A stretch of 64,000 bases of DNA from positions 1 through 64,000 of the forward strand of contig JAODLY010000004.1 in the NCBI GenBank assembly GCA_025464445.1. Direction: 5' to 3'. Positions 27,901 to 30,114 of the stretch are shown here, piece by piece. A program made the translations under genes and the position numbers. Under the pieces are notes generated by a model, which worked only from the letters and a program-made list of their open reading frames with translations, searched no databases and was not told the DNA's origin. Source of the stretch: Rhodoglobus sp. (GTDB lineage Bacteria; Actinomycetota; Actinomycetes; Actinomycetales; Microbacteriaceae). The stretch's first letter is position 1. Each line of letters starts with the position of its first letter.

Positions 27901-30114
27901 GTGTCCACCGTCGGCCCGACCCCGTCGCCCGCAGAGGGCGCGATCGCGCTGCCCAGCGCTACGGAGAAGGCCGGGTTGAGCATCCGCTCGATCCTGCTCA
28001 TCATGCTGCTGCTGGTCAGCATCTCGTCGAGTGTCGTTGTCGGGGTCATCGGGTTCGTCAACGGCCGTGACTCCCTGCGCAGCGCCGCATTCGATCGGCT
28101 CATCGAGGTACGCGACTCGCGCACTGTCGAAATGCAGAGCCTGTTCACCTCGATCGAGAACACCCTGCTGCTGAACGCGCGCGGCGAGAGCGTGCAGGGC
28201 GCCGTCCAGGCGTTCTCCGCCGGCTTTGCCGACCTCGAGTCGTCGACGCTCACGACTGCGCAGCGCGCCCAGCTCGAGTCGTACTATACGGATACCTTCG
28301 GGCCCAGGCTTGCCGCGGCGGGCGCAGCCTCCGTCGACGCGTCGACGTTCGTGCCGACAGACCCCGCCGAGAGTTATCTGAAGCTGCATTACACCGTGCA
28401 GTTCGACAAGCCGAGCGACGCGATCGCGAATGACGACGCAGGCGACGGCAGCGCATGGTCGGCCGCGAATGCCCGCTACAACGACTATTTCCGCAGGATG
28501 ACGCAGCTCTTCGCCTACGAAGACGTGCTGCTCATCGACGCGAACGGCAACATCGTGTACTCGGCCTACAAGGGCGTCGACCTCGGCAGCAATCTCGACA
28601 GTGGACCGCTCAAGCGCACAAACCTGGCGACCGCCTACGCGAGCGCACTCGCCGGCAACGTTGCCGACACCGTCGTGATCACCGACTTCGCGCCGTACCC
28701 TCCGGCCCTCGGCGTGCCGGCGGGCTGGGCAGTCACCCCTGTCGCTGTGGATGGCACGATAATCGGCGCGCTCGCCGTCGGCATGCCGATCTCGCGCATC
28801 AACGAGGTGATGACCGGCGGCGGCGACTGGGTTTCCAGCGGGCTGGGCAAGACCGGCGAGACCTACATCGTGGGTGCTGCCGATAATCTCATGCGCTCGC
28901 CGTCCCGCGGCCTGATCGAGCATCCCGACAAATATGTCGCAGAGTCGATCGCGGGAGGCTCGCCGCCTGATCTCGCAAACCAGGCACTCGCCGACAAGGA
29001 GACGTTGCTGCTGCAACCGGTGAGAACCGATGCGGTTAGCGGCGCCCAGGAGGGCCGCAGCGGCACCACGATCATCCCGAACGGGTATCTCGGCCGGGAG
29101 ACGATCAGCGCATTCGCCCCCCTGCCCATCAATGGCCTGGACTGGGTGATCGTCGCGGAGATCGACAGTTCTGAGGCTTTCGCACCCGTTGACGACTTCA
29201 CCCGAAACCTCGTGCTGTCGTCGGCGGTCATCGTGCTCGTGGTGTCGCTGTTCTCCCTCATGATCGCGGGCGTCATCGTGCGCCCGCTGCGCAGACTTCG
29301 GGATGCCGCCCGCCGCATCGCCGCGGGAGAGGTCGGCGTGCAGGTCGACGCGGGATCGAGCGACGAACTCGCCGACGTGGGTGCCGCGTTCAACGACATG
29401 AGCCGCAGCCTTCAGGTGAAAGCCACGCTGCTCGAGGAGCAGCAGGCCGAGAACGAGCGCCTGCTGCTCTCCCTCATGCCGGAGCCGCTCATCAAGCAAT
29501 ACAAGGAGGGCGCGCAGACAATCGCGTACGACCATCAGGAAGTCACTGTCATGTTCGGCGACATCGTCGGCTTCGAGACGTTCAGCAGCGGGCTGAAGTC
29601 GGAAGATTCCCTGGAGAAGCTCAACGAGATCCTGCGCAGCTTCGACGATGCGGCTGACCACTACGGCATCGAACGGGTGCGCACCACCCGGGCCGGGTAC
29701 CTCGCGAGCTGCGGGCTGACGATCCCGCGGGTCGACAATGCACGGCGCATGGTCGATTTCTCGATGGAACTGCAGCGCATCCTCGAGCGGTTCGGCGGCA
29801 AGCACGGGGTCGACCTCAACCTGCGTGCGGGGCTCGACACGGGAACCGTCACGAGCGGCCTCGTCGGTCAGACCCACATCGCCTACGACCTGTGGGGGGA
29901 TGCCGTGAATCTCGCCTTCCAGATCCAGGGCAACAACCACGAGGCTGGCATCTTCCTCACCCAGAGTGTTGTCGACAGGATGCCGGACACCGTGCACGTG
30001 CGCGACTGGGGCTTCGTGAATACCGCGACCGGTCCGCAGCGGGTGTGGCGCATCGACCCCGATGACGTGAACGCACCACCGGTCTTCTCTCCCCCTTCGT
30101 TCGCCGATGACTGA
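27901..30114 (+). CDS. Membrane receptor with extracytoplasmic Cache-like sensor, HAMP and class III nucleotidyl-cyclase-like domain (degenerate)
   Basis: GTG start; TM-sensor-TM; HAMP VRPLRRLRDAARRIAAGEVGVQV; LLLSLMPEPLIKQY linker; VTVMFGDIVGFETFSSG...RVRTTRAGYLASCGL...YDLWGDAVNLAFQIQ. Confidence 0.88.
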   Translation: MSTVGPTPSPAEGAIALPSATEKAGLSIRSILLIMLLLVSISSSVVVGVIGFVNGRDSLRSAAFDRLIEVRDSRTVEMQSLFTSIENTLLLNARGESVQGAVQAFSAGFADLESSTLTTAQRAQLESYYTDTFGPRLAAAGAASVDASTFVPTDPAESYLKLHYTVQFDKPSDAIANDDAGDGSAWSAANARYNDYFRRMTQLFAYEDVLLIDANGNIVYSAYKGVDLGSNLDSGPLKRTNLATAYASALAGNVADTVVITDFAPYPPALGVPAGWAVTPVAVDGTIIGALAVGMPISRINEVMTGGGDWVSSGLGKTGETYIVGAADNLMRSPSRGLIEHPDKYVAESIAGGSPPDLANQALADKETLLLQPVRTDAVSGAQEGRSGTTIIPNGYLGRETISAFAPLPINGLDWVIVAEIDSSEAFAPVDDFTRNLVLSSAVIVLVVSLFSLMIAGVIVRPLRRLRDAARRIAAGEVGVQVDAGSSDELADVGAAFNDMSRSLQVKATLLEEQQAENERLLLSLMPEPLIKQYKEGAQTIAYDHQEVTVMFGDIVGFETFSSGLKSEDSLEKLNEILRSFDDAADHYGIERVRTTRAGYLASCGLTIPRVDNARRMVDFSMELQRILERFGGKHGVDLNLRAGLDTGTVTSGLVGQTHIAYDLWGDAVNLAFQIQGNNHEAGIFLTQSVVDRMPDTVHVRDWGFVNTATGPQRVWRIDPDDVNAPPVFSPPSFADD

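Follow-up and report, generated by a model that had tools for sequence, protein, structure and literature searches.

A stretch of 64,000 nucleotides of Rhodoglobus sp. DNA (the window) encodes a receptor-type protein with a class III cyclase-homology domain in which canonical catalytic residues appeared to be replaced. The locus thus raises the question of whether the protein makes a cyclic nucleotide and, if it does not, what it may act upon. The earlier note on this DNA had left two readings side by side, a pseudoenzyme or an enzyme of altered specificity.

The gene (window positions 27901-30114; coordinates refer to the window and its + strand unless stated otherwise) was delineated from its open reading frame, Pfam matches and an AlphaFold model. 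It starts with GTG and encodes 737 amino acids in the order TM - dCache - TM - HAMP - coiled coil - class III cyclase-homology domain. The dCache_1 sensor region (residues 206-418; 28516-29154) stayed under Pfam's own cut-off here (E = 5e-5; 2e-11 for the same region in relatives), and is bracketed in the model by helices 28-94 and 428-474. With this flanked, though sub-threshold, sensor region, a clear HAMP domain (residues 455-505; 29263-29415; E = 5.9e-14) and the cyclase domain, the protein has the composition of a receptor-type (dCache-HAMP) cyclase. The catalytically degenerate cyclase-homology domain spans residues 541-725 (29521-30075); the Pfam match covers residues 544-694 (1.4e-30), and the protein scored 106.7 bits against PF00211, for which the curated cut-off is 21.9. 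In one orthologue the dCache region carries an apparent insertion of some tens of residues (L055:5099-7693, - strand). Antisense to the gene lies an open frame of 919 codons (27496-30255, - strand), a pattern that high-GC codon bias usually produces and not one that marks a gene.

Catalytic positions of the cyclase-homology domain

The AlphaFold model, run with a 23-row alignment, had a mean pLDDT of 80. Its cyclase domain resembled the structures 5o5k and 4p2f (Foldseek TM 0.81-0.84, 27-31% identity), which bears out the cyclase fold; the earlier note had proposed a structural comparison with Rv1625c. We compared the domain with the mycobacterial cyclase structure 4p2f by phmmer. Query residues 503-725 aligned at 116 bits. 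A gap of one residue lies close to either end, and the stretch from the first metal position to the YDLWG motif is ungapped. FGDIVGF aligned to FADIVGF, and the first metal Asp is kept (D554; 29560-29562). RVRTTRAGY aligned to KIKVSGDSY, with R594 (29680-29682) replacing the substrate Lys and A598 (29692-29694) replacing the second metal Asp. Finally, YDLWGDAVNLAFQ aligned to YDVWGDAVNVASR, where the purine-contacting D663 (29887-29889) and the transition-state N670 (29908-29910) are kept and the transition-state Arg is replaced by Q674 (29920-29922). The catalytic set here is D-R-A-D-N-Q against the canonical D-K-D-D-N-R. Three of the six residues are missing, and the protein thus lacks the full combination of two metal Asp, a Lys-Asp/Thr pair, Asn and Arg by which a catalytically competent class III cyclase is recognized. 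The motifs quoted earlier were found in place and the six positions had been read exactly; the proviso that a profile alignment might place a Lys, Asp or Arg elsewhere in the active site came to nothing, as none was placed.

The substitutions were not due to sequencing error, because R594 and Q674 recur in all four of the nearest relatives (position 598 is Ala in three of them and Ser in one), and Arg or His stands at position 594 in all 65 actinobacterial orthologues. The domain is like that of the Rv1625c (Cya) class IIIa cyclases (4p2f, 5o5k, 7yzi) in fold and motif order. An Rv1625c-like protein, L119, however, keeps D-K-D-D-N-R, and the receptor half differs: Rv1625c has a six-helix membrane anchor, a known architecture, instead of dCache-HAMP.

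Class III domains without part of the catalytic set are familiar from the C1/C2 halves of mammalian adenylate cyclase and from the alpha subunit of soluble guanylate cyclase. Those domains, however, pair with a complementary catalytic partner, and the window's genome has none to offer: a PF00211 search of this 99.6% complete genome returned no further class III subunit by which the active site might be completed. The single PF00211 protein and the single PF00027 protein of the genome are both encoded at this locus (see below). Since PF00211 is single, the missing residues cannot come from another subunit of class III, and rescue by heterodimerization with a second cyclase was ruled out. Among other kinds of cAMP source, the search covered the CYTH type and returned no such protein in the genome. 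PF00211 is absent altogether from 165 of 200 Microbacteriaceae genomes, and 28 of the 30 that carry the gene pair described below have no further member. In the two exceptions (L121:1172-4627 and L122:1067-4219) a further class III cyclase of different build adjoins, in convergent orientation, the gene of a Crp-like protein, in which the phosphate-cassette Arg is kept.

Conservation and selection among actinobacterial orthologues

The orthologues came from five close relatives in the genome collection, from 200 Microbacteriaceae genomes (29 sequences) and from a class-wide draw (30 sequences). Of the latter, 23 sit in a single other family and genus; an Rv1625c-like cyclase that is present there as well scored 656 bits against the mycobacterial Cya structure, and the genus is therefore Mycobacterium. 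An intact D-K-D-D-N-R set was found in 0 of 65 sequences: Lys is lost throughout and the second metal Asp nearly always as well.

The six positions behaved differently. At the first metal position Asp occurs in 53 orthologues, Glu in 11 and Asn in 1, and D663 is present in all 65. Position 594 is Arg in 62 and His in 3, with no Lys, and lies at the 15th percentile of entropy within the cyclase domain; the base-contacting pair R594/D663 is present in 62 of 65. By contrast, the second metal position is at the 88th percentile, with Asp in only three sequences and N, E, Q, S, G, A or R in the rest. The transition-state positions vary at the domain's median rate (position 670: N 31, S 25, T/D/V 9; position 674: R 31, Q 29, A/E/L 5). 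Thus, when we asked, as the earlier note had proposed, whether the replacements R, A and Q are conserved among orthologues, the first was (Arg or His in 65 of 65), whereas position 598 varied and position 674 was divided almost evenly between Arg and Gln.

This pattern bears on the choice between the two readings that had been left side by side. An enzyme with a new substrate would need a two-metal site and constant replacement residues; position 598 is A, S, Q, E, R, G, N or D depending on the orthologue, and altered specificity is therefore disfavoured. The pseudoenzyme reading gained support from the same variable metal site, from the absence of Lys in 65 of 65 and from the lack of a complementing subunit, and at the level of sequence the status of the domain as a pseudocyclase is well supported.

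It could be argued that the gene is simply a decaying remnant. Catalytic residues are indeed missing, and an in-frame stop splits the cyclase-like gene of one Mycobacterium (L099:2176-4389) and of one cyanobacterium (L153:3452-5626), each an apparent pseudogene or an assembly error. However, dN/dS over the cyclase domain was about 0.11-0.28 (synonymous exceeding non-synonymous changes roughly 3.5- to 9-fold), 40-odd positions are at least 95% conserved in the 65 orthologues, and the reading frames are full-length in nearly all. These data refute decay at this locus, and we regard it as highly improbable. Purifying selection together with an unconstrained position 598 indicates that selection maintains the domain but not its second metal site. 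The 65 actinobacterial sequences group as a single clade of the tree (support 100/100) on a long stem (0.86), on which the Lys-to-Arg change is therefore best placed.

The adjoining channel and its nucleotide pocket

The earlier note went no further than the cyclase domain and overlooked the gene downstream. This gene (30107-31540) encodes an MscS-type channel of 477 amino acids with a C-terminal cNMP-binding domain. It has the architecture of the bCNG channels of the MscS superfamily, an MscS pore and beta-domain (MS_channel_2nd, PF00924, residues 161-226; 30587-30784; E = 1.8e-16) followed by a cNMP-binding domain (PF00027, residues 354-439; 31166-31423; E = 1.5e-6). Its AlphaFold model (pLDDT 79) matched MscS in Foldseek, and the C-terminal part matched Thermus CAP. 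The two genes overlap by 8 nt (30107-30114), and among actinobacterial pairs an overlap of 8, 4 or 1 nt is the most frequent arrangement; we infer translational coupling.

The channel gene lies directly downstream in 34 of 34 Microbacteriaceae loci. Across 395 genomes sampled from the class, full-length profile matches to the cyclase-like protein and matches to the channel occurred in the same 30 genomes at adjacent coordinates. Open frames of more than 1200 aa in some genomes proved to be different frames or upstream extensions, and not fusions of the two genes. A plasmid search returned no match to the channel. Near the pair, an ABC exporter gene upstream (25924-27801 in the window) recurs in 26 of the 34 Microbacteriaceae loci, and a cystathionine beta-synthase gene downstream (31509-32945) in 22.

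On indirect data, Rv2435c/Rv2434c of M. tuberculosis are probably the orthologous pair. Genomes of the Mycobacterium type carry, like the window, a full-length orthologue and an overlapping downstream channel (23 pairs); at the three changed positions the mycobacterial orthologues have R/N/Q (or H/N/Q), and the window's protein R/A/Q. In the literature Rv2435c figures as an adenylate cyclase with a dCache domain (PMC4822843) and as a mammalian-type cyclase (PMC3961136), and a 2004 survey of actinobacterial cyclases names both Rv2435c and Rv2434c (PMC2447327). Given this probable orthology and the naming of both genes in the survey, the pairing itself is probably not new.

The phosphate-binding cassette of the channel's cNMP-binding domain (31319-31345) reads GLTALTRQGVSSRVTA against GE...R in Crp, the motif that holds the cyclic phosphate. 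L405 and V413 stand in place of Glu and Arg, the pair by which a cAMP- or cGMP-binding domain is recognized, and in this the channel differs from the bCNG architecture that it otherwise shares. The Glu was found in 0 of 65 actinobacterial channels and in 26 of 37 cyanobacterial ones, and the Arg is missing from every aligned channel, whether actinobacterial, cyanobacterial or gammaproteobacterial. The Arg was kept in two Crp controls, which are encoded beside ordinary cyclases in G140 and G193.

Might a cyclic nucleotide still be made by a non-canonical site, with Arg for Lys and one metal or shifted ligands, and gate the adjacent channel? The strict pairing with a channel that bears a cNMP-binding domain and the conservation of D554, D663 and R594 speak for it, and some class III enzymes can be active although their Lys/Asp residues are non-canonical, Rv1900c and Rv0386 among them. 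On the other hand, the second metal position is unconstrained, variation at the Asn and Arg positions is no lower than the domain's median, the genome has no second class III subunit, and the channel's pocket is without the residues that bind a cyclic phosphate. We consider this the main rival explanation and, on balance, an unlikely one.

Alternatively, the pseudocyclase and the channel may each bind a small non-cyclic ligand, such as ATP or a nucleoside, which would give a metabolite-controlled channel with no need for contact between the proteins. In trypanosomatid PKA the cassette Arg was lost along with control by cAMP, and a cNMP-binding domain without it can bind purine nucleosides instead (PMC10959531). 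Foldseek matched the channel model to the T. cruzi PKA regulatory subunit as well as to Thermus CAP, and the purine-pair residues R594/D663 are kept. The match to 6ftf is, however, poor (rmsd 15.8), and we judge this explanation slightly less probable again than residual synthesis.

Relatives in other phyla and a possible mode of signalling

Relatives were found in 56 of 242 cyanobacterial genomes. The cyclase domain could be read at 40 cyanobacterial loci. Of these, 37 adjoin a channel gene, and the hexad is incomplete in all 40; DKDDNA, EKDDNA and DKSDNR are the sets met most often. In most Cyanobacteria Arg is the residue lost, and in some members (DKDDNA) it is the only one, with both metal Asp, Lys and Asn present; low activity is possible in these, judged by their residues, and it is here that residual synthesis is most credible. 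In two loci the channel gene comes first (L006:2-3099 and L153:3452-7159), and their cyclase domains are among the most degenerate (RLEKEA and TNEKRQ). One tandem, L188:105-5932, has the order cyclase - channel - second cyclase, which suggests duplication within the cyclase-channel module.

All five full-length gammaproteobacterial relatives are channel-linked; the first metal Asp is missing in all five, and none has an intact hexad. In one of these bacteria the gene of an SBP_bac_3 solute-binding protein, a possible ligand-binding partner, directly follows the channel (L226:1539-2744, - strand); in two others the channel is followed by frames of about 420 aa that match no Pfam family clearly. 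The catalytic residues lost differ among Actinobacteria, Cyanobacteria and Gammaproteobacteria.

Three rhizobial plasmid relatives of the same dCache-HAMP-cyclase architecture have all six residues intact, and no channel gene lies within the flanks examined. One of them, on pSymA of Sinorhizobium meliloti (L193:3917-6001), has the same domain order and aligns to 87% of the query at 33% identity; unlike the window's protein, it combines an intact catalytic set with the absence of an adjoining channel gene. Since the three are close kin, they count as one event.

These comparisons raise the possibility of a widespread kind of receptor-pseudocyclase-channel system, in which cyclic-nucleotide chemistry is gone from both partners and catalysis was lost independently in the three groups wherever an MscS-type channel was linked. 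We hold this generalization only tentatively, at somewhat less than even odds. At three cyanobacterial loci a degenerate cyclase stands with no channel within about 3 kb, and the intact, unlinked contrast is a single rhizobial lineage. No description of such a rule of broken channel-linked cyclases across phyla, or of the broken channel pocket, was found in the open-access literature. The generality of the catalytic loss thus appears undescribed, which is weak evidence of novelty since the search covered open-access papers only.

For the window's own pair, the domain order, the catalytic losses, selection, the pairing, the single PF00211 and PF00027 proteins and the degenerate phosphate pocket together lead us to propose, with a probability of roughly 0.6, that the pseudocyclase receptor and the channel work as one unit and that no diffusible cyclic nucleotide is made. 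We infer the lack of activity, a physical interaction, the direction of signalling and the gating of the channel. The periplasmic dCache domain would sense a ligand or condition; the signal would run through the HAMP domain and coiled coil to a pseudocyclase dimer, which would set the gating of the MscS-type channel via the channel's C-terminal cNMP-binding-like domain. The likeliest routes would be direct contact between the cytoplasmic domains of both proteins, or the binding of a nucleotide, without catalysis, that alters this contact. Such binding by the pseudocyclase is plausible from its residues, because R594 and D663, at purine-contacting positions in active enzymes, are retained. Counting against the proposal, the bCNG channels of the MscS superfamily are reportedly gated by cyclic nucleotides (Caldwell et al. 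2010, cited in PMC4560390).

If the proposal is true, a set of genes annotated as adenylate/guanylate cyclases make no cAMP, and an annotated family of cyclic-nucleotide-gated channels is opened by something else. Predictions of cAMP signalling would be wrong where the dead domain is the only or main class III cyclase, as it is in 28 of the 30 paired Microbacteriaceae genomes (30 of the 35 in which PF00211 occurs at all). Should Rv2435c of M. tuberculosis belong here, the adenylate cyclases counted for that organism would include a pseudoenzyme. The pairing would also offer a direct test of signal transfer by a pseudocyclase and of the cue that opens the channel; our results suggest that the pair signals without cAMP.
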